From Adineta ricciae (lineage: Eukaryota; Rotifera; Eurotatoria; Adinetida; Adinetidae): a DNA stretch of 64,000 nt. The stretch spans positions 124,001 through 188,000 of the forward strand of contig CAJNOJ010000202.1 in NCBI GenBank assembly GCA_905250025.1, in the 5' to 3' direction. Position 1 is the stretch's first letter; every line of letters starts with the position of its first letter. Below the pieces are notes generated by a model. The model was not told the origin of the DNA and made no database searches. It saw only the letters and a list, made by a program, of their open reading frames with translations. Shown in pieces: positions 8,208 to 23,825 of the stretch. The position numbers and the translations under genes were made by a program.

Positions 8208-9089
8208 TTATGGATGTCGCATAATTATTTGTTTGATAAAATTGCGCACAGGTTGATTGGTATAGATTATTACAATAACATCGTAAAGAATGGTTATTGA
8301 TGGTAGTACCTGAATACAAGCATTAAGAAATGATGGAATTAAATTGTTCTTGTTGAAGAGCTGTATTGCAAGAAGAGGAGTCCATCCAATTAGAAAAGCC
8401 ACAAACGTGCCGATTGTTGTTTTCAGTAAAAATACATCACGTGAATGTGAATTTTGACCACTACCACCCGTGACACCAACTCGACGAGTAGACTGCCGTA
8501 CAAACAGAAAGATACGTATGTTACACAGGCTGACAATAGCTACCGGAAGGAGCAGAGTAGTTACTAGGGTGTAATACGGCATAAATTCGGGCTGCTCATC
8601 ACCCGGACAAGTGAAACTATTTGAAAATAACTGTGGTAGAGCAATCAGCAAGGCAAAAGCCCATCCAAGTCCAATACAGAGCCAAATATAAGAATTTGAA
8701 CGGAAAAATTGCTTATTCGAATACACAATTGTGAATATTCTACTAATCGCAACCACACAATGCGAGTACATCATTTGACATGCAGCCATATCTGCTAGAT
8801 ATGCTTGCAATCGACAGGATAAACCACTAGATACTGTCAGAAGCTGTTGAATGCTTATTTGTAGTATAATACTACATAGGAACACACTAGTTAAACATAC
8901 ATTGACGGTGAACCAATTGAGTTTATTCTTCCGAAACAATGGTCTAGTGGATACGAGGACCATATACAAGACGGCAAGAATGATAGATAAGATCGAGACC
9001 GATATTTGAATGCTGAAAACTGCTGAATCATTGCTGATATAGAGACGATTTGCGGATTGATTATACGTATTACTAGCGTTTTCATGCAT
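8208..9089 (-). CDS. Rhodopsin-class (class A) orphan G-protein-coupled receptor
   Basis: Single exon, 293 aa from the ATG at 9089. A short extracellular N-terminus carries possible N-glycosylation sites (NAS, NQS, NDS), followed by seven hydrophobic segments; TM1 is ISVSILSIILAVLYMVLVS. A cysteine before TM3 (SGLSCRLQAY) and one in loop 2 (NSFTCPGD) could form the usual disulfide. TM6 has the typical FLIGWTPLL. The DRY motif at the end of TM3 is replaced by SRI (VAISRIFTIVYS), and TM7 lacks a clear NPxxY (YDVIVIIYTNQPV). This is typical of the large set of divergent lophotrochozoan/rotifer peptide-like orphan receptors; the ligand is unknown. It is short for class A but complete. Confidence 0.82.
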   Translation of the reverse strand: MHENASNTYNQSANRLYISNDSAVFSIQISVSILSIILAVLYMVLVSTRPLFRKNKLNWFTVNVCLTSVFLCSIILQISIQQLLTVSSGLSCRLQAYLADMAACQMMYSHCVVAISRIFTIVYSNKQFFRSNSYIWLCIGLGWAFALLIALPQLFSNSFTCPGDEQPEFMPYYTLVTTLLLPVAIVSLCNIRIFLFVRQSTRRVGVTGGSGQNSHSRDVFLLKTTIGTFVAFLIGWTPLLAIQLFNKNNLIPSFLNACIQVLPSITILYDVIVIIYTNQPVRNFIKQIIMRHP

Positions 9090-9754
9090 GTCAAATGCCT
9101 TTCAGTTTCTAGTAAGCAGCCACGAATAAGTACGGTGAATCCCGCTGATCATCATTATTTCCGCTCTTATTCACATCGAGAAAAAATGATAGTTTAGTAA
9201 CGCGACTTGCCATTTTTGGAAACATGCAAATGAGTATTCCAGACAAGAAAACCTCATCTAATAGAACAATAGCCTAATCTGCTATAAATATATAAATAAT
9301 TACACTGAAGGATATATTCGACTTCTAATGAATCATTTGATCGAGTAAAATTAAAATATTAATTGAATGCACATTAAGTATCTGAGCAGAAGTTTCATTT
9401 CTATTTGACAACTTACTCATTCTTTTCGTCAAGGTGAAATGTGCAATCGCTTGTTTAATATACTTTCTTCGTTTCTCTTTCGCCTTTTTTGCACATTGCC
9501 ACCATGCTCTTACGTTCTCCAATTGTACAGTGTAGAAAAAGAAAAAGTGGTCGATTACAAACGCACACATATATAGACTCAATCAAATGTATGCTTGTTA
9601 TTCCGTCAGTGTAGAAGAGCGATGCTTATAATATTTTTTTCGTTTTGCCATCCACCCTATTGATCATTACAATACGAGGACATAGAAACGTGAGTAACTA
9701 GCACAATTACATTCGACATGTTTTCAAATATTGATTCATATTTTTGCTATAGTT
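9090..9754. other. Divergent intergenic region between GPCR and TRPM genes
   Basis: No gene supported. It separates two divergently transcribed genes (GPCR minus, TRPM plus) and so should hold both promoters. A minus-strand open frame at 9325-9582 starts without ATG and has no recognisable domain. Confidence 0.6.
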
Positions 9755-12700
9755 ATGGAAAACACTGAAGTCAGTATATTAGTCGACGATGGTGAAGACA
9801 ATCATTTTGATGCGTATCCATTGCAAATGATTTCACCAAATAATAAAACTTCAGGTAAATGCATCAAATGAAAAACCTCTCTTTTTTCAGTGTTCATTCT
9901 GATTCGATTAGAACGAAGTGTTTATCCAACTACGACATTGGATTTAGAAAAACGTGTGAAAAATGTATGTTCATTTTAGAAATGAAAACTTAAATTACAA
10001 ATATTGTTTCACAATCTAGGCCATCCATACTTTGAAACTCCGTCTTGCAGATGCAGCTAGGTGAGTTCTTTTCGCACAATTTCATGTCATATCATATCAA
10101 TAAATATGTATTCAGCGATACTCCAGCTTACTTTGGCTTTTTAAAATTTGTTTACGCTAATGATGCGGACAAAAACAATCGTCTGTCATCGGTAAGTCAT
10201 CGTCTATCTGAAGTTTCTATACATCTCATTGTTTAGTTCGTCCACTTGGCAACGAAATCACGACCATGGATGGTCGCCAATCTCATAGAAGCATACTATC
10301 TACCGACTCCGGATTTTATTCTATCGATACAAACGGGAGGTATTCAACAATATGGACCATACAAAGATAGATCGGGGATTCAAATCGAAACTGAACATGC
10401 AATTCAACATGGTCTAACTGCTCTTGCGACAGTCACACGTAAGTGATAGAAAATAAATCATGGCAAATAGAGATTTTCTGATCTAGGCCCGTGGGTCACG
10501 ACGAGTTGTAACAAACAGGATATGATTCGTTTGGTTGGAAATGCGTTGCATCGAGATATGTGTGGCACGGATGTTCCTTGTATTAGCTTTTGCAATTGGA
10601 AATCTGTAGCAGGTAGAAGTGATTATCGAAACTCAAAGGATAAGTAAATTAGATTTTCCGATGCACAGATCATTATCAATTGGAAAGGCAACGGACTGTA
10701 ATTTCAAAACTTTTCGAGACACGATTCATGGTGAAACATCAAACTAATCTGATATGAGAACTTCAGTTTTGATTATTTATGATTAGATGAATGATGATGA
10801 TAATGAACCACGTTCGGTTCATGAATATCAATTAACAACAAATAACGATTATGAAACGAACATTTCCGGTTGGCATCTCGATCCAAATCATACTCATTTT
10901 CTTCTATTCGACGATGGGTCAAATGACGTGAAAAATATGCTATTAAAACGTCAAGAAGTCGAACATGAATTGAGTATTAGTCGACCATTAAAATCACCTG
11001 TGAATGGTTATAAATCAGCAAGTGACAGTACGTATCTTTCGATGTTCAACCATATCCTACGTGTCATTTACTACAGTACATGATAGCGAGATTCCTATTG
11101 TTATGCTATTATTGGGCGGTAATTTTACCACATTAATATCCATATGCCAAGGTTTAGAAAATGGAACACCTGTTGTTGTTGTTCGAGTAAGTTATACATT
11201 GTTGATTTGACATATATGAAAGATGCTCTGGTATGCGTTCAGGATACTGGTGGTTTAGCTAATATCATTGCTCAACTCTGTCGAAAACTGTCACCAATGG
11301 ATGAACTCGGCGAATTTCGAAAAATTACATACATCGGAGAATGTAAAAACGAATTAAAGAGGTTATGTTACGAAGAAGGAATATTAGCAATGAACGATGA
11401 TGAAATCAAAATTAACGATCAACTTGCTGAAATTGAAAAATATGTTGATGTTTTAACAGAAATGGAAACGCTCATTGTCATATTCGATGCTATCGAACGA
11501 AAAAATAAGCTGGAAGATGCTATTGCGAATGCTATGTTAAATGGTATTAAGTATCGAGTGGAAAATTACGAACAACATTTCACTGCAGACATCAGGGCAG
11601 CGGAAGCAGCATGGTGTTTGGTAAGATCTTGAGTTGTGACTAGGAATGTAAAAGATTCGTTTGTCGGCCAGATATGGAATCGAGATGATCATGCGCGTCA
11701 ATTATTAATCGATCGTAACGACAAAACGATCATCTCAATGAATGATAATAATCTAAACAAAGATCAGGTAAGCGAAGAAGGATTGATTCGAACCAGGTGA
11801 CAAGATTTTCTTCTTAATAGAAACTTACCTTGACTCAACAGTTATTATACGAGGCATTGTATCGGAATAATGTACTTTTTGTTCGTTTGCTGGATGAATG
11901 TGGTGCATCGATCGAAGAACTAGCAGAAGAACAGTTGGTTGTTATTTGTATTAAAACGATGGTAATGTGATCATTCATTATTCGATTTCATTTCTTTCTC
12001 TTCTTTTGCAGAATGACAATGCTCTTCCGCTAGATCATTTGTCTCATAAAACACACCTGTCGAAGCATGATACGACTATCAACGCGTTGAAAATATATGT
12101 CGAACGAGTTTATAATAGTTATCTTCGAGAATATTTAGGTCATTATGTAAGTATTTTTTTGAACTCAAAATCGAATGTGTTGAAAGCGGTTCATATATTG
12201 TAGATTTCGCAAGAGAAAAGTCGAAAACGGATACGCAGAAGAAATGAACGCTTCAGTGGATTTAATATTGGCAGAATTCTAAATTCCAATACCATGAAAA
12301 TAGCGGACATATTTGGAGGACGAAAAACGGAAGCACTCTATCTCTGGTTTGTCTTTATGAATCTACCAGGTATGGCTAAGTATCTCTGTTTTCGATCTCG
12401 AGTAAGATGAAAATTATGCATAGTATCACTTATCATGTACGATTTATTCATGATCATAGAATCAGACAGTGGGCACTCTTCTTGCCAGTGACATTTATTT
12501 GGCAGCAGCGAAGAAGAATGCAAAAAACAAAAGGTATTTGACAACAATGGCACAGTAAGTTGATTAAATCGGGGAGTACCTAGTGTATACCTCAATGAAT
12601 ATAGAGAATTTGACCGGCATTCGAGAGGAATTATCGATACGTGCTTTGCCAAAGATGATGATTTCGCACTCAAGTTACTGAAATCGAAAGCGACGATGTT

Positions 12701-14810
12701 CTACACCTGCTTTCCGTTACATATCGCACGACGAGCAGATTGCCGAAGTTTTCTCGCTAGTAATACAGTACAGAAGCATCTTCAAAATAAATGGTTTCAT
12801 AATTTCAATTACCAACGACGATTGATGAAAATTCCAGTTGCAATTTGGGTTCGTTCACAACGTGTACAATAGTATCTCATTGACATTTTGCTTTCAACTT
12901 CAGATTTGTCTCGCATCATTGCTGTTACCAATGTTACCTTTTGCATCAGTGTTTGTACCAGCGCTTTACAAAAAGATATCTACAGAAGAGAATTCAGCAT
13001 CGGTAAGATATCCGTATGAATGATCTGTAACTATTTGGCAACTCGTTTAGGAACATAAAATTTCGAATCGATATCGTGCTGTGGTAACTTATCATTTACC
13101 CCCGGAAAAGACAACACGACGAGATTCAGATACACCAAATCTGCGTGAACGTATCAAGTGGTTTTACGAAGCACCAGTCGTGCATTTCTATTACTATTTT
13201 GTTAGTCTAATCTATCCGCTTCTTACCATACATTTATTTCATAATTAGATCTTCTTTGTCTCCTTCTTGGGTTTGTTCAGTTACGTTCTTCTTTTCGATT
13301 ATTTTCCGTTGAATATCTACGGCGAAAAACGATCTGGAATTCAAAATCTGCCGATACCAATTACTGAAATTTTGCTTCATATCTGCGTTGCTAGTTTGAT
13401 CATCGATGAAATATATCAAGTTAGTTCTCTTTATTTGTCGAAATTGTTTCTCACCATTGCTCGGATAGTACACTTTGCAAACAATCAAAGAATATCAGTA
13501 CAGTACTAATCCTTGGAATTGGATGGATCTGACCGGCATTTTATTTTATCTAATTGCGTTCGTTCTTCGTTGGTTCGTCAATGAACACATATTTATCTGT
13601 TCAAAGTAAGATATTAAAGAAGATTCGAGTGAATAGATTGCAACATCGACTGTCTAGAATATTTATGTCTATTGACTTGATCATCTGGTATATTCGAATA
13701 CTTTATCTGTTTGCTGCGTATGAAATCTTGGGACCGAAATTAACGATGATCTACGAAATGGTGAGTATATTCGATGTGGAAGGATATTAAATGATTTAGA
13801 CGATGTTTGTGTTGCAGATGAAGGATGCTCTCTTGATCTTTCTATGCTTCATTCTTATTCTTTTGTTTGGCTTTTCGATTGCTTCATGGTCGCTTCTTAC
13901 TACAACTCAACAAGTCGTTTGGATAAATATGACTAATGGTACATCGATGAACAAGTTCGTTATAGCAGAAGGAAGTGGTGAACTACGAAGTTGGCAACTA
14001 TTGAGAGATGTACTCAATTGGGGTATTTGGAAAGTATTCGGACAAGTCGCTGAACCTTACAATGGCGCTGTTAGTGGTAGGAATGAATTCTTCATGTGCG
14101 GGAATATCAGCAAATGTATTTAACTACTTTAGAAAATGATGCTTATGGCACGTTTGTTTTCATATTTGCAATTGGTTTCACTGTGATATCAAATGTTCTT
14201 CTTCTGAATGTTCTCATTGCAATGTTCAAGTGCGGGTTTATAAATGAGCGATTAAAATAGATCACGAACGTTTCTCTTTCTAGTGAAAAGATATTACGTG
14301 TTCAGGAGAAATCGAATGAACTATGGCGATATCAACGATTCTGGCTGATTAATGAATATAAAGACAAAACAGTATTACCTCCTCCATTGAACATTTTATG
14401 CTACATAATCCAGTTTTTCACCTATATCGTCTGCTGTAAATGTCGATCTAAGTCTGTGGCTTTACTCGATCCAGATTCTGGTATAGTTGCATCTCTTGGG
14501 AATGGATATTTCGTTTCAAGTTGTTCTTCTTCACAGATTCATCGTCGGATGAGGACTCATCTACTATCAATGCACCTGAACAATCATTGGTCGACACTCG
14601 TCAAATTAATCGTGAAAAAAATCTCGCAGAAGTATATTGGCGACAGACATTCGAAGAAGAAGAGAAGGAGAGAAAACCGTCGGTTACTTGAAGACAAATC
14701 AATTTTTCTCAATTTTTTTTCTATGTTTTAGTTTGAACAAACAACAAGATGACACTGCTGAAAACAATCAGAACTATGATTCTCAGAAGCCACTAAATTC
14801 AACATTACAA
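9755..14810 (+). CDS. TRPM-family cation channel, many small exons; apparently continues into LRR exons
   Basis: Start ATG at 9755. My first exons are 9755-9854, 9891-9964, 10020-10060, 10116-10191 and 10237-10438, joined by introns of about 36-60 bp with consistent phase. The N-terminal TRPM homology (SLOG/LSDAT) region is clear: KSRPWMVANLIEAYYLPTPD, PWVTTSCNKQDMI, LGGNFTTLISICQGLENGTP and DTGGLANIIAQLCR (10246-11330). Transmembrane segments lie at 12900-14220: S1 and S2, then DLTGILFYLIAF (S3) and IWYIRILYLFAAYEILGPKL (S4). The pore helix/filter has WGIWKVFGQV (about 14018-14050) and S6 is NVLLLNVLIAMF. The TRP helix reads ELWRYQRFWLINEY, followed by LPPPLNIL, a TRPM hallmark. The C-terminus is acidic (SSSDEDSS, FEEEEKER). 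Exon 14792-14810 or a longer version reaches the first LRR in phase 0. No Nudix or kinase domain was seen. Confidence 0.85.
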
Positions 14811-14870
14811 GTACGGAATACTATACGTAGACTATTTCAAACTGGTTGCTTACTTGAGATTTCTTCATAG

Positions 14871-17800
14871 ACATTAGAACAACTTGATTTTAGCAACAAA
14901 CAAATTGGATATAAAGGCGCTGAACAACTCGCCGATGCTATTCGAAAGAGCACCGTTCGTTCGACATTGCACTTGACACCACAGTACTATCGATTTTCAT
15001 TGTTTCTTTTTCATCCAGCCGCTCACTCAACTTGATTTATCGAAAAATCGAATTGGCGATCAAGGAGTTCAGTATCTGGCTGATGCTTTAACGCATAATA
15101 AAGTGAAATATATTTTCTCTGTTTGTTGGATTCTTCTCGAAGTCGAGGTTTTTACATATAGACAATCACTATGCTCAATCTTGCCGACAATGATATCGGC
15201 GCACATGGCGCTTCTTATCTTGCCAGCGCTTTCGAAAACAATAAGGTAATCATTATTTTTACTCAAATCCATGTTCTTCAGGTATCTCCGCAGACACTTA
15301 TCGACATCGATCTTTCAAATAATCGAATCAACGATGAAGGAACCGAATATCTAGCCGACGCTTTTCGATACAATACGGTAAATGATAGACTCGTTTTTAA
15401 AGATGTATATTCTATTGATTGTGTCATATATAGACACTCAATGTATTAAAACTGTCAGCTAATCAACTGACAGATTATGGTGCTGAATGTCTGGCGAAAA
15501 CGTTGAAAAATAATACTGTAAGTTTGTTTTTGTTAGAAATGTTTTCGTGGAAAATTTCTTTTTCATTAAAAATAGACCATCGAGTTTCTCGATCTTCGGT
15601 GGAATAAGATTTCGACTAAAGGAATCCAGCAGCTAGCCGAAGCTCTACCACACAATACTGTAGAACGTTTTTACCCATCTTATAGATCATCAATTTTATT
15701 CTATTAGACGCTGACTCATCTCAATCTCTCGTGGAATGATATAGATGATAACGGCGCTCAATCATTGGCTGACGCCCTACAGAATAATAAAGTATATCTC
15801 ATTTGAATTCATTCTATTTTTATTTGATTATATCTAATGCAGACACTGGTAACACTCGATCTCGCATCGAACAGAATTGGCGGACAAGGAGCTGAACAGC
15901 TAATAGGTTCTCGACGAAATCACGAAGTAAGCATGTCTCTTCGCTGGATCTCCGTACTTCTATTTTAATCGCGCAGATTTCGACACGATTCGATCTTTCA
16001 AATAATCAAATAAAGCATGATGGAATTAAACTTTTGACCGATGCTTTAAAAAATAATACAGTAAATATACTTTAACTTTAGAGATAAAATCTTCATTCTT
16101 TTTAACAGTCAGTTGTTACACTCGATCTCAGCAGCAATCGAATTGGAAACAATGGAGTTCAACATTTAATCGTTGCATTAAAAAGCAATAGTGTAACTAC
16201 ACTTCAGTACCAAAAACAACGTTTCCCATCATTCTTCTTCAGACATTGACGACATTGAATCTAGCGAGTAATCAAATTCGTCCGTCCGGAATCGAATACT
16301 TGGCTCGAACGACCGATGCTACTACTGTAAGTTCCACAGTGGCAGTTGTAAATGCGTATAGATTGCTATTTTATGTCCAGCCATTATCAACACTTGATCT
16401 TAGTTACAATGAAATTGGAGTCCTTGGCTCTAAAGATCTGGCGACTATTATTTTAACGAATACTGTACGCGAATTTAGTTCATATATTCGATTTATTGAA
16501 ACCTATCTTGCCTGTTTAGACAATTACTACTTTACTACTTTCGAGCAATCAAATTGGCACGATCGGCATTCAAAATCTATCATATGCTTTGCAGAATAAC
16601 ACAGTACAGACTTATTGAATTTCATCATGGATTTTTTTTAGCTATAAACTTTTCATAGACAATCGTTACTATCGATCTGTCAAAGAATCAAATTGCAGAT
16701 GCCGGTATGAAACATTTCGTGAATGCGTTAAAGCACAATACGGTAGGAAAAACAACTTTCGTTGTATTAGAACATTCTCTCATCTACTTACTTATATGTT
16801 TGTTTCATATGCAGACAATTAGTACGATTGATCTATCGCAAAACCAAATAACAGATAAAGGTGTAGAGCATTTAGCAAATGTTTTGAAGTTTAATACGGT
16901 AATTTTGCTGCAACAAGTTTCTTCGTCAGCCATTGGTGAAAATTTGACTTTTGTTATAGACACTGGCCATCATTCGTCTTGTAAGCAACAAAATTACAGA
17001 TAAAGGAGCTCATTCTCTGGCTAGTTCCATTCAACAGAATAAAGTACAGTATATTATTCTATGACTTATATTTCCTTCTTATATCTGATTAGGTCAGGAT
17101 AAAAGAGCTGGATTTATCCTACAATGCAATCGAAGATCAAGGAGCTCGATCGCTGGCTAATTATCTGCAATATCAAATGGTAAGGATGTTATTGATCTTT
17201 CATTTATATACAATCAGAAGATTGTTTGTAGTCACTGGTCAAATTAGAACTTACAGGTAATCCCATTACACGTAACGCGGCTCGATATCTGTCCGAAGCT
17301 TTTCGACATAACAAGGTAAAAACGGTTCTTTTGTATTCATGTAAATTATGCTCATCGATGTGTAGAAATTGATAATTCTGAATGTTGCATTGAGCCAAAT
17401 TGATGAAGAAGAAATTCTAACAATCAAAAATGCAAATGACACCAATTCGGTTAGAATATTTGAGTAATTACACAGACTTACATTTTTGTTTACATCCAGA
17501 CACTTACGAGCCTTGATCTTGAAAACAGCGGTATCGGACGTACAGGTGCACAAGCTCTCACAGTTTTATTACGGCTGAATACTGTAGGTTTTACCCTTTT
17601 GTGACAACATAATTTTAGTATTTTTCACTACAGACTCTGACTACACTAAATCTGCGATACAATAAGATAACTGGCAAGGCAATTCAATATCTCTCAGAAG
17701 CTATACGAACTAGCACGGTAAGTGAAGATAATTCTGACACTTCTATTTTTTTTCCAAGATACGAATTTTTCTGTACAGACATTGACCACTCTCGAACTCG

Positions 17801-20800
17801 CAGGAAATGAAATAGGCGTCGAAGGAATGGAACGTTTAGCTGATGTCATCAAACTTAATAAAGTAATAAGACTTGTCATCGATTACTGATTTTATTGGAA
17901 ACTTTTCCTTCAGACTCTCACTACACTTGATCTCGCAGCGAATGAACTCGGATTTGAAGGAGCTCGGTACTTAGCTGATGCCATTCGAAACAATACGGTA
18001 GAACTATATCTCGTCATTGCTACTCTTCTGATTCGCACATTTGACTGATTTAGACAATCACGTCGTTGGATCTTAGATCAAATAAAATCGGTAGTGAAGG
18101 CGCAAAGTATTTAGCTGATGCTTTTCGTAACAATCAGGTAAATATCGTACTGTTATTTGTATTCTTATGATTCTTTCATTCAGACTCTTACTGCACTCGA
18201 TCTCGGATCGAATGGAATCCGTGCCGAAGGAGTACACTGTCTGGCCGATGCTTTCCGTGACAACGAGGTGCGTGTGTTTGCCCATCATTCGTCACTTTCG
18301 TTAAATTATAGAGGATTTTCTCTTATGTAGACGCTTCGCACACTCAACTTGGGAACGAATGGAATTGGTATTGATGGAGCTAAATACGTTGCGAATGTTT
18401 TCCGACACAGCACGGTAAACGACTTTCTATATGTATTTAACATTCTATATATTTCCTTCTTCGTGTAGACGTTGACTGCGCTCGATCTTCGTGGAAATGA
18501 ACTTGGTGCAGATGGTATACGGCATCTCGCTGATCTATTCCGAGAAAGCAAAGTAGATTTTTACATTTACATAGCGCTGAGAACTTCTCTCTTGTCGTAC
18601 ACAGACACTGAATTTGCTAGATCTTCGATCGAACGGAATCGGAGATCGAGGAGCACAATATTTAGCGGATGCTTTTCGAAATAATAACGTAAGTATTTGT
18701 TCAACATACTTTAAAACTTCAATAATTTCAATATAGACTCTTGCGACACTTTATCTTGGATCAAATGGCATCCGTGCAAAGGGAATATACCATTTACTCG
18801 AAGCTTTTCAAGGCAATCAAGTAAATCATCTTACAACCAAAATCACTACTGACTATAAACTGATTCATAGACGCTCACAAATTTAGACCTCTCAGAGAGC
18901 AAAATTACTCTTGAAGGAGTGAAATATCTTGCTGATGGTCTTCGAAATAATAAGGTGTCTAGAATTTTGTCTCTTCTCTTATGATTCGAATATAATTTCT
19001 TATCGAATAGACATTGAAAATTATGAATCTTGGAAATAATGAAGTTGGTGTTGAAGGAATACAACGTTTAGCCAATGCTCTACGCGAGAATACGGTATGT
19101 TTGAATATCTGTCGACTGTCTTTGTTCACACCTAAACTTATTTACTGTAGACTCTCACAGAGTTGGATCTATCGGGAAATAAAATGAATGTTATAGGAGT
19201 CCAGAGGCTTGCAGATGCTATTCATAATAACGAAGTAAGTCGAATTCGTATTATACGGTGTTCAATTGACATAAATTTTTAAGACACTTACTGTTCTTCA
19301 TCTGGCGAATAATAATATTGGTGATCAAGGAGCTCAATATTTGGGTGATGCTCTTCGGAACAATACCGTAATCAACATGCTCTGAATGTTCTTACTTGCT
19401 TAGACCGATGCTCTTTCTTTTTCCGTAGACATTGACTACACTCGATCTCTCGGATAATGAAATTGGCACTGAAGGAGCACGATACTTAGCTGATGTTTTC
19501 GAAGACAATCAAGTAACTTCTAATCAGTCAAATCTTTGTTTTCATCTTCATCTACTTTGCTTAGACATTGACTAGAGTCTATCTACAAAAAAGTGATAGA
19601 AACGGCAAAGACTCACAACGTGTGTCGGATGCTTTAAGAGCACATGTGGTAAATAGTACCAGTACCACCATCTCAGTTTAAAATATGCCTTGTTATGATT
19701 CATTTTAGATACAAGCAGTTCCAACACACAATACACCGACGACAGAGTTTCTAACAGACGTATCACAAGTTATAGCCGATACATTACGAGATAATCAAGT
19801 ACTATACTAAATGTCCCCTTTGGACTTTGTCGGACATTGATTTTATTTTCGGCATTGTAGAATGTAACTAGACTTTGTCTACGCGATCTGAAACTCGGTC
19901 CTGAAGAGATTCAACGTCTCACTGCTGCTCTTAAACTAAACCAAGTTTGTTACTTTTCGTGATTGAACATTTACCACTGTTTTTTCGGTGCAGACACTCA
20001 CCATATTGGATTTGACTTCCAATGCAACCGGATCCCAAGGAGCAAAATATTTAGTGGATGCCTTACAAAATAACAAGGTATCAAATTGATACTTCTTGTC
20101 TGCATCTATACTTTTCCTCACCATAGTCACTCGTCTCATTGTCACTCGGATCGAATAAGATAACTGATGACGGCATACGTCATCTGGCTAATGCTTTCCG
20201 AAATAATACGGTAGAATTGATTATTCTATAGTTGCTTTTCATTCCATTCTCAAAAAATTGATCTAAATTTAGACCTTGACTACATTGGAACTCTCAGCAA
20301 ACTTGATCAGCAGTGAAGGAGCACACTATCTAGCCGATGCTCTACGAGAAAATACAGTGAGTACCTATATATTGTTTCTTCTATGTATACAGTTTCTCCT
20401 ACAGACGCTGACAACACTCGATCTTCGGTCAAATGATATTGGGACTGAAGGAATACGATACCTCGCTGATGCACTTCGAAATAATCAAGTAACAAAATAT
20501 ATGTGTATTCTATTAACTAAGAAACCCATATATCTTCCCCACAGACATTGCTGTCACTTGACGTTAGTTCGAATAGGATTGAGTGATGTCATAATATCAT
20601 TACCCCAGGTATCCGTTTAAAAATCGACAACAGTATATCCAGAATCAGGAGGAATTTGAGTGAATTCGGTCAATATCCAGCAGGTAACGAGATGGATATC
20701 GACGAATGGTCTCTGAAGGCGTTGCTGTTCAAGACCAGAGTCTAATGGAAACACTTAATGGTATCAGAGACAGTAAGAGGTATGATAATCCAGAAGAGAA

Positions 20801-22178
20801 TGTAATTGGGTACTGTACGCCTAAGTTGCTGAGCTAGAGTTGATGAACATACGAAGCCCTCGTCGAGGTATCACTTGTTGGAGTTAAAATCCTAAAAGGC
20901 TTTTGTCCACGTACCAAGCTTTTCCCCACACCCTCAACAGTTTGGTTATCCGGTATCGGATAACGAGACGTTCAGCTCTGGATACCCAGCTAATGATATT
21001 ATGACAGCTATGATAGGATTAGCAATGACGGAGCACAATATTTAGTTGATATTTTCCGTCATGGTACAGTGAGCAATTTTCCTTTGCATCTCAACCAATA
21101 ATTCGTTCACCTCAATGATATAGATGCTTCATACATTACGTCTCGGATCGAATGAAATCGATGCAGAAGGAATGGAGCAGTTTGCTGATGCCGTTCGAGA
21201 AAACCAAGTGCGTATAGTCGTTTGATAAACTCATTCTTTCCATTCACTGGTCTAGACATTCGTCGTTCTTGATCTTCAATCCAATGAAATCGGCGATAAA
21301 GGAATCCAATATCTGACCGATGCTCTTCGAAATCATCAAGTAATCATCATCCATCAGATTGATTACCATGGAAATTATGTTCTTTAGACATTGACTACAG
21401 TAGATCTCTCAGATAATAGTATCAGTGCCGAAGGAATGCAATATTTGGCGAACGCTCTCCGTGATAATACTGTAATCATCTTCCTCAATTTGTCTTCGTC
21501 CAGATATGCGGGTACCTGTTTCTATTCTAGACACTCACAACGTTAGGATTCTCCTTGAACTCTATTGGTCCTGAAGGGGCTCAGCACTTGAGTGAAAACA
21601 TTCGAGAAAATATGGTGATTATCCTCTTGTTTTCCCAATACGATCTTATACTTATGACAAATCTTTAGACACTCACTTCATTGAATCTCAATTCGGATAA
21701 GATCGGCGCTGAAGGAGCAGAATATCTAGCTGATGCATTCAGAAATAACAAAGTCAATCATTGTCATTCTTTCTCATGGAAAATTTCGATTTTTCTCCTA
21801 TAGACACTAACAGTGATCAATCTTCGCTCGAATGGAATTGGCGATAGAGGAGCACAGTGTCTAGCTGATGCATTTCGGGACAACAAAGTATCAGAATCCA
21901 TGGTTTTTTGTCGCTAATCTCACTTTTCGCATAGACATTGATCCATCTGGATCTTGCCGACAATGGCATTGGAGACAAAGGCGTGCAACCATTAGCTGCT
22001 GCTTTACGAGATAATAAAGTAATTGTATTTCTTCGCACCACTTGACTATCATTAATTTACTTTTCTTATGTAGAATCTCACCGTTTTTCATCTGGAAGGA
22101 AATCAAATAGGAAAAAAAGCCAAACATCGTGTGATGCAAGCATTCAAAGAACATCTTGGATTAAAATTGTTCTTCTAG
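14871..22178 (+). CDS. Leucine-rich repeat array, about 50 one-repeat exons; probable C-terminal part of the TRPM gene
   Basis: From 14871 to the TAG at 22176-22178 I count about 50 exons, nearly all 84 bp (28 codons), phase 0, each opening right after AG with ACA and closing before GT. The repeat is LxxLDLSxNxIGxxGAxxL followed by ADALRxNT, the ribonuclease-inhibitor/NLRC3-type LRR. The first is 14871-14954 (TLEQLDFSNKQIG), and the last ends FHLEGNQIGKKA...LGLKLFF. Introns are about 45-75 bp. Such arrays form a curved protein-binding solenoid of about 1,400 residues. No ATG lies in frame in the exon preceding the first repeat, so a separate gene start is not evident. The repeat near 20545-21070 is split by an inserted element; the repeats at 19572-19800 are degenerate. 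Confidence 0.85.
20581..21012. mobile_element. 432-bp non-autonomous inverted-repeat element (MITE-like) with 8-bp target duplication
   Basis: The element is flanked by ATAGGATT at 20573-20580 and 21013-21020. Its ends are inverted repeats of about 34 bp that share GTCATAATATCATTA without mismatch (20588-20602, and reverse-complemented at 20991-21005), then GGTATCC after a short mismatched stretch. It has no coding capacity. An 8-bp duplication fits hAT-type or related cut-and-paste transposases, but the termini are not classical hAT, so the superfamily is open. It lies inside one LRR exon. Removing the element and one flank restores exactly 28 codons with a normal repeat (DVSSNRI then SNDGAQYL). 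Confidence 0.85.
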
Positions 22179-22227
22179 CATGATTATATAGCATCCTTTC
22201 TACTTACATCTGATGATCTATCTAAGA

Positions 22228-22233
22228 AATAAA
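22228..22233 (+). promoter_or_regulatory. Poly(A) signal after the LRR array
   Basis: AATAAA 50 bp past the stop codon at 22178, consistent with the end of the TRPM-LRR transcription unit. Confidence 0.5.
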
Positions 22234-22739
22234 TCAGTTCTATCATATTAACCAGTTGTTCGTACTTGACACACCAAAGAATGCTAACGTTAGTCTGATC
22301 TACCAACATTCAAGCTTGTAATTAATGCACGACGGCATGACGTGTGCAGTATTCTGTCTGTCACAAAGGATTATCTTTGATTAGCTTGCAGAATATTGTA
22401 TTTCTCCGAAATTCGCTATCATATTGAGCGCATACGGTCAAAGTTTTAAAGAAGTGTGTATATGTGTCGAGAAACTAGTTAGAAGTTCATGCTACTCTAG
22501 ATTACAAGTGGGACGCTTCGATTGGTTCATGACTGTATATGAGTTGGAGTCATGCAAGCGATTTTGTTTTGAAAATTCATTGAACGTAATGCAGTACAGT
22601 GGAAACGATCCGATATGATAGATAATACAAGTATTGAATTGAGCCATCAAAACGAATGATACACAACTGTATGTACCTATATTGACATAATCCAGCGTTG
22701 CCACTGTTTTTCCACTAGGTCTGTATCTGTCTGCTTCTG

Positions 22740-23115
22740 TACCGAGGACAATGAAGACGACTAGCTGATATAAAGCAATCCACATGTACGAATACTCGAA
22801 GCCAAGTAAAATAGTTTTAAGAACCTGAAGATCTTACATGTCGGAGAAGAATCTGTCAAAGGCAGAAACCTATGTACGATAGGAAGATAATGATCAAGAT
22901 TCCACCCGAATAACATGAGAATGTCAAAGATTGCTATTGTACGCGTATAGTGGATGGTTGCCTATTTCTTCGTATCTCGAAACGTTGGGCGGTAAAGAGT
23001 GAACAAAGTTGAAAGGTTCAGTATGGTGCCCACAATAACTAATGTTAGTGGATAATAAGCTGCAAACAATGGTTCACTTGATTCTGCATTTGCGGCTGAT
23101 GTATTGCTTGACACA
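22740..23115 (-). pseudogene. Rhodopsin-class GPCR relic
   Basis: The minus strand reads SNTSAANAESSEPLFAAYYP, then LTLVIVGTILNLSTLFTLYR (TM1), an in-frame TAG at 22962-22964, and TIAIFDILMLFGWNLDHYL (TM2), PTCKIFRFLKLFYLASSIRTC (start of TM3), followed by another stop. The glycosylatable N-terminus, TM1-TM3 order and the cysteine before TM3 fit a class A receptor of a type different from 8208-9089. There is no ATG in frame upstream and nothing recognisable after TM3, so it is a truncated and interrupted copy. Confidence 0.65.
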
Positions 23116-23825
23116 ATTGCTCAGATTACTCTGCGCTATACGTAATGGCATAGAAGGCAGGCTTGAAAGAGACAGACGACACTTATAGAGTAAATTGTTT
23201 CTAGAGATGTTACGAAGCAGCGATGTTTGTGAAAATAACTAACTCGATCCTCTAGCAGATTTTTTGATTCCAGCAGTAGAGCACGAAGGAAATTGTAACT
23301 ATTTACGATTAGGAAATGCGTTAACTACATGTCCTTGTATATACCTATAGGGAAAATAAATGTGAAGTCAAATCTCTACGGGATATTTTCCACTGTGACT
23401 TCAAGGTCATCATACACACCTATAGAACAACTAAATCTGTTCAATTCCGAGAGACTACACAGTTTGACATCAATTTGTGATAAACGAATCAGAAATATTC
23501 GTTGTGACAGATCCAAATGTGAATAATTATAGCACATATTGTTTTTCGGTGGATAACTGTTTCTTATTTTCCATTTGGCATTCTTTTCGCGTCATGGTAT
23601 TTCATCCAAACGATTTAGTTCGCCATTTGTGCCCGAATACCCACTGAATAAGCGTCAAATCAGAGGAAGTGACACCCTTTCAAAGTTTTGTCTATTTGCA
23701 TGAATAGTACAATCCACACTGCTTTTGACATATATCTGTGTTGTTTATACGTAAAAAATAATTTACCTACTAATAAATATACGTCGTCACGTACTTATGT
23801 ATAGTGTCGTATGGAACCCTCACTA

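Follow-up and report, generated by a model that had tools for sequence, protein, structure and literature searches.

A single gene of the rotifer Adineta ricciae very probably encodes a TRPM channel that carries, as a cytosolic C-terminal extension, a solenoid of about 50 ribonuclease-inhibitor-type (RI-type) leucine-rich repeats (LRRs). This gene lies on the plus strand at positions 9755-22178 of the window, by which we mean the whole 64,000-nucleotide stretch of DNA that was analysed (contig CAJNOJ010000202.1, positions 124,001 to 188,000), and its product is predicted from the genomic DNA. A sequence-only reading of this DNA had proposed an in-frame fusion of TRPM and some 50 LRRs, and our spliced model confirms it, being open across the junction and containing 50 repeat units. 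Across the genome searched (130 Mb in 1,033 contigs), five copies at three loci have the C-terminal half of a TRPM followed by LRR exons. Named by contig, these are the window gene, a sister copy in C202 near 58 kb (94% DNA identity to the window over 3.9 kb), two copies in C218 near 126 kb and near 88 kb (the latter on the minus strand), and one in C38 near 105 kb.

A 2026 survey of metazoan TRPM evolution presents the TRPM C-terminus as a site of module gain and loss, and the C-terminal domains described in its main text are NUDT9-H and the kinase, the latter being the acquired C-terminal domain of TRPM6 and TRPM7; that main text contains none of the words 'rotifer', 'leucine' and 'LRR', and the species table includes no rotifer (PMC13143021). 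A TRPM-LRR fusion was not found among the papers listed by our searches of the open literature (titles and the starts of abstracts), and automatic database entries may exist. An old and selected LRR tail would add a further module to the TRPM C-terminus, and through it a protein-binding solenoid and a Ca2+-type channel would be coupled directly. Such a protein would be a natural system for asking how a TRPM tail drives gating.

Gene structure and the channel region

The gene comprises 26 exons for the TRPM part and a linker, followed by 50 LRR units. With one interrupted LRR exon omitted, the spliced model has 75 exons and 2,625 residues, and all of its introns (74/74) are GT-AG, with a median length of 53.5 bases and a maximum of 635 bases across the interrupted exon. 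The model has no internal stop; its single stop codon is at the end (TAG, 22176-22178), and an AATAAA follows 49 bases 3' of it (22228-22233), with an AATAAA also present after the LRR stop in the C202, C218 (126 kb) and C38 copies. An automatically derived exon path over-split several TRPM exons and was replaced by the hand-curated model used here. The T-rich stretch at 9740-9754, which ends in TAG two bases 5' of the start ATG, resembles a splice or trans-splice acceptor. Open frames adjoin the gene on both sides (8208-9101 and 22492-23120, both on the minus strand); we take these to resemble seven-transmembrane receptors.

The first 14 exons (9755-12401; hand-curated, GT-AG and in phase) encode the N-terminal cytosolic TRPM region (SLOG/MHR; PF18139 and PF25508), and the next 10 (12460-14480; assigned by phmmer against PDB) encode pre-S1, S1-S6, the pore, the TRP helix and a following segment. 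The last TRPM exon (14537-14678) encodes an acidic segment and NREKNLAEVYWRQTFEEEEKERK, which we take to be like the rib helix, and a related exon occurs in 5/5 TRPM-LRR copies. Pfam matches to the spliced model included the TRPM2-like domain (E 1.3e-18) and SLOG in TRPM (PF18139, E 4.8e-18), above the cut-off. Ion_trans gave no Pfam match to the model at E 0.01, and the window itself was not among the matches of a SLOG search run over the genome exon by exon; the channel assignment therefore leans also on solved TRPM structures. These match the gene from pre-S1 to the TRP helix (phmmer against PDB), the best being the TRPM2-like channel 6co7 (E 5.8e-43), and the chains matched are of TRPM2, 1, 5, 8, 3, 4 and 7. 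The SLOG/melastatin N-terminal region and a TRPM-type S1-S6, pore and TRP helix are all present, and the Pfam and PDB matches together bear out the TRPM architecture that had been described.

Alignment to 6co7 places E, Q, N and D at the positions of the TRPM2-type Ca2+ site in S2-S3. Two pore-loop cysteines are usual in TRPM channels. The pore stretch of this gene (translated exons 13818-14229, with S5 and S6 limits of our own reading) contains no cysteine. The missing pair is not an exclusion criterion for TRPM; cnidarian TRPMs without the two cysteines are described in the main text of the survey (PMC13143021). Family searches of the 1,272-aa model and of LRR units 1-10 and 20-28 found no alpha-kinase. 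From what is known of the family, we infer that the tail is cytosolic and present in four copies per tetramer.

The LRR array and its possible role

Repeats were scored with a table built from those of the window, C202 and C218 (126 kb) copies. Scanning positions 14701-22300 of the window for LRR-scoring exons of the form AG, 84 open bases, GT returned 46 on the forward strand and 0 on the reverse, and the same scan returned 47 in C202, 44 in each of the C218 copies and 46 in C38, again with 0 on the reverse strands. In the window the LRR exons start at 14871, 15019, 15162 and onward to 22178, and the 46 that are exactly 84 bp long are all in phase 0, beginning with the first (14871-14954), so the claim that phase-0 LRRs follow the TRPM exons stands. 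Four further units, namely one of 87 bp (17093), a degenerate one of 90 bp (19709), one that is interrupted (20545) and the terminal one (22074-22178), bring the array, with one unit per exon over 14871-22178, to a total of 50.

The earlier count of about 50 is upheld with one correction, namely that unit 42 (from 20545) is interrupted by an insertion. This insertion of 432 bp (20581-21012) has 8-bp flanking direct repeats, ATAGGATT (20573-21020), and imperfect inverted ends, and it looks like a non-autonomous DNA transposon. The sister-copy counterpart, C202:64814-64897, is uninterrupted. A strict LRR pattern gave 0 matches in C38, which had suggested that this copy is unfused; a profile derived from the repeats found LRRs there, and the idea was therefore dropped.

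The repeats are tandem and 28-29 residues long, as in RI-type LRRs, and the Pfam family LRR_6 matched units 1-10 with E 1.3e-51 and units 20-28 with E 1.2e-50. Against PDB, repeats 20-28 matched RNase inhibitor (E 1.4e-36, with 1dfj among the matches), NLRPs and other RI-type LRR proteins, and further matches were to LRRC34, DRC5, radial spoke protein 15 and CARMIL/LRRC16A.

Several known systems share parts of this organization. TRPM2 with NUDT9-H (TRPM-beta; 6co7 is the best match) has the same SLOG/MHR region, S1-S6, TRP helix and large cytosolic C-terminal domain, but in the present gene the LRR array comes where NUDT9-H sits, and the 1,272-aa model has no Pfam match to Nudix. The channel-kinases TRPM6 and TRPM7 likewise join a TRPM core to an acquired C-terminal domain, which here consists of LRRs and not of a kinase. 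LRRC8 volume-regulated anion channels, which are pannexin-like hexamers of four-transmembrane subunits, are likewise ion channels whose C-terminus is a cytosolic LRR domain; they are unrelated anion channels with fewer LRRs of another type, whereas here a TRPM carries 50 of the RI type. Ribonuclease inhibitor and NLR proteins (PDB 1dfj, NLRPs) have RI-type repeats as well, but in this gene the array is attached to a channel and is about 3x as long as that of RNase inhibitor, and the 1,272-aa model has no NACHT match.

We propose that the four LRR arms would stand where ordinary TRPMs have their terminal helix exon and would dock a conserved cytosolic partner or ligand. Binding of this partner would be relayed from the arms to the TRP helix, and that relay would gate or position a Ca2+-regulated cation channel, in the manner of the NUDT9H tail in TRPM2. 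Taken as a whole, from the replacement of the helix exon to the gating or positioning of the channel, this mechanism is tentative, and we put its chances slightly below even. In its main rival, possible if somewhat doubtful, the LRR arm would be a tether that anchors the channel to a structure such as the ciliary axoneme or the cortex and does not gate it. The matches of repeats 20-28 to LRRC34, DRC5, radial spoke protein 15 and CARMIL/LRRC16A, whose presumed cell sites lie behind the axoneme or cortex reading, agree with a tether, but RNase inhibitor and the NLRPs were matched too, and the similarity is one of repeat type only.

The junction between channel and repeats

Between the last TRPM exon and the array lie a phase-2 intron (14679-14731; donor GTCGGT, acceptor TTTTAG) and a linker exon, LNKQQDDTAENNQNYDSQKPLNSTLQ (14732-14810). 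The intron contains a TGA (14689-14691) that is in frame if this last intron is unspliced and that lies 6 bases past a possible donor at 14683. The donor GTCGGT, shared by the window and the sister copy, scores weakly (3.1), and the acceptor at 14731 scores well (6.5). The linker had been described as a bridging exon open in the LRR frame and free of in-frame ATG codons; both points hold, and LRR1 and LRR2 of the window are ATG-free as well.

All five copies have a phase-2 intron at the corresponding place followed by a related linker, which supports splicing from 14679 to 14731, the second of two options that had been offered. The first option, a donor at 14683 with acceptors inside the linker, was rejected because it would discard a stretch upstream of 14772 that has a similar counterpart in C218. 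After a conserved NREK anchor the exon continues for 77 bases in the two C202 copies (the window and its sister) and for 74 in both C218 copies and C38, so that the distance from anchor to junction differs by one residue between the C202 copies and the others. The residues at the junction, for the window, C202, the two C218 copies and C38 in that order, are KERK-P, KERK-T, KQKL-A, KQKS-A and KQSK-T; the intron lengths are 53, 54, 55, 55 and 121 bases and the donors GTCGGT, GTCGGT, GTTCGT, GTTCGT and GTAAAT. The linker exon also differs in length in a way that keeps the frame (79 bp in the C202 pair, 76 bp in the C218 pair), and the C38 linker was compared over its first 64 bp, ahead of an inserted element. 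This apparent insertion in C38, a stretch with GGCCC-rich ends at about 106430-106920, lies between the linker and the first LRR exon. Neither AATAAA nor ATTAAA occurs in the junction of the window, C202 and C218 (126 kb) copies, and the C38 junction has four poly(A) hexamers, one at the donor and three nearer the first LRR.

It is unlikely that the gene makes two products under a regulated switch, a short TRPM without LRRs that retains the intron and ends at 14691, and the full TRPM-LRR. The donors GTCGGT (C202) and GTTCGT (C218) are non-consensus and have short alternative ends behind them, as such a switch would use. However, the ends encoded by the retained intron vary between loci, being PSVT in the window, TSVT in C202, and longer and different in the C218 pair, so that no conserved protein sequence marks the short end.

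Selection and age of the fusion

Changes in the linker are 3 synonymous and 1 replacement between the window and C202 and 1 and 0 within the C218 pair, or 4 and 1 over the two copy pairs, and the probability that at least 4/5 changes would be synonymous is 0.004 given 27/153 synonymous sites. For the LRR exons dN/dS is 0.216 between the window and C202 (46 pairs) and 0.111 within the C218 pair (44 pairs), and for the TRPM exons from 12460 together with the linker (12460-14810) it is 0.10 between the window and C202. By these measures, the linker and the LRRs evolve as protein under purifying selection in both copy pairs, and the TRPM part does so between the window and C202. Between the window and C202, the LRR introns diverge by 9.2% and the linker exon by 5.1%; the junction intron differs at 2/53 aligned positions, so a rapidly changing intron next to a slowly changing exon is not what is seen here.

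Between loci, LRR dS values of 2.7, 2.0 and 1.9 are near or past saturation, which indicates that the TRPM-LRR order is old. Reciprocal best units number 4/41 between the window and C218, and 8/42 and 17/43 in the other comparisons, and identity is 0.47-0.54 in register against 0.38-0.39 off register. This weak unit-by-unit matching, the little-diverged junction intron, the interrupted LRR exon of the window, the weak donor of the window and C202, and the poly(A) hexamers and inserted element of C38 count against a fused gene. That the whole gene is expressed as one transcript had been suggested earlier, and comparison supports this, in that five copies at three loci have the phase-2 junction intron and a related linker, with purifying selection.

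Replacement changes per site are 0.026 at core, 0.053 at concave and 0.069 at other LRR positions (90 unit pairs, with position classes of our own). Since the replacements avoid the core and show no concentration at concave positions, we read the LRR arm as a conserved docking or sensing surface and not as an arms-race receptor. It follows that the earlier suggestion of pathogen sensing, for which changes would be looked for at the concave, ligand-type positions, is left unsupported. A fast-evolving receptor for pathogens or danger signals that opens the channel is improbable: its RI-type LRRs are like those of NLR proteins, but the concave positions are not enriched in replacements and overall dN/dS is low in both copy pairs (0.11-0.22). 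Most improbable are two adjacent genes, namely a TRPM that stops at TGA 14689 and an independent LRR gene whose transcript, perhaps from an operon, would receive a spliced leader at 14731. Trans-splicing does occur in rotifers, and the TGA just past the possible donor and the good acceptor speak for this reading. Against it speak the lack of an ATG in the window from linker to LRR2, the maintenance of the linker as protein with a length difference that preserves the frame, the intron phase shared by the three loci, and the hexamer-free junctions of the window, C202 and C218 (126 kb).

Copies in the genome

When the genome was queried with the linker and the exon 5' of it, 7 matches were returned (E up to 10), each of them in one of the five TRPM-LRR genes. 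The linker portion matched the two C202 copies only, the C218 and C38 linkers being seen by reading the DNA, and diverged linkers elsewhere may therefore be missed. In a tree of the pore-to-TRP region within this genome, the five LRR-bearing copies fall on one side of a branch with values of 97/98; the tree has 15 rows (13 different), is drawn from TRPM places with fetched loci, and leaves out C115, a fragmentary match. A search of the genome contigs by pattern for relatives of the pore gave 20 matches, with 0 confirmed.

No LRRs were found near the other TRPM copies (C446, C272, C17, C81, C792, C158, C70 and C115) within loci of about 3 kb, which extend about 0.8-1.5 kb past the matched TRP exon; in the fused genes the first LRR lies at 0.4-1 kb. 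In C446, C17, C272 and C81 the rib-helix-like exon is followed by short open frames, for example LHELKERVLNN (C17) and RIDKLNDGINRILQ (C446), which we infer to be coil helices. Genome-wide, there are 1,804 candidate LRR_6 places (150 of them scored), and a genomic pool of LRR exons therefore seems to exist; several of these places are spaced 141 bases apart, as expected of 84-bp exons with short introns. With somewhat less than even confidence, we suggest that these genes form a lineage-specific TRPM class in which exon shuffling would have put a pool-derived RI-type solenoid of about 50 repeats where the terminal helix exon would otherwise lie, and whose four arms would engage a conserved partner in the cytosol and gate the entry of cations.

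TRPM genes occur in close pairs of the same orientation on the same contig in C202, C218, C446, C272 and C158, and paired SLOG matches were seen in C205 and C162. Such pairs could reflect either segmental duplication or two haplotypes that the assembly has joined, and for this reason the fused copies are counted as three loci and not as five independent cases. Elsewhere in the window, positions 30-35 kb match C202:73.6-78.2 kb at 95% and positions 55-60 kb match C202:161-166 kb at 96%, and both blocks match C121 at 74-79%.
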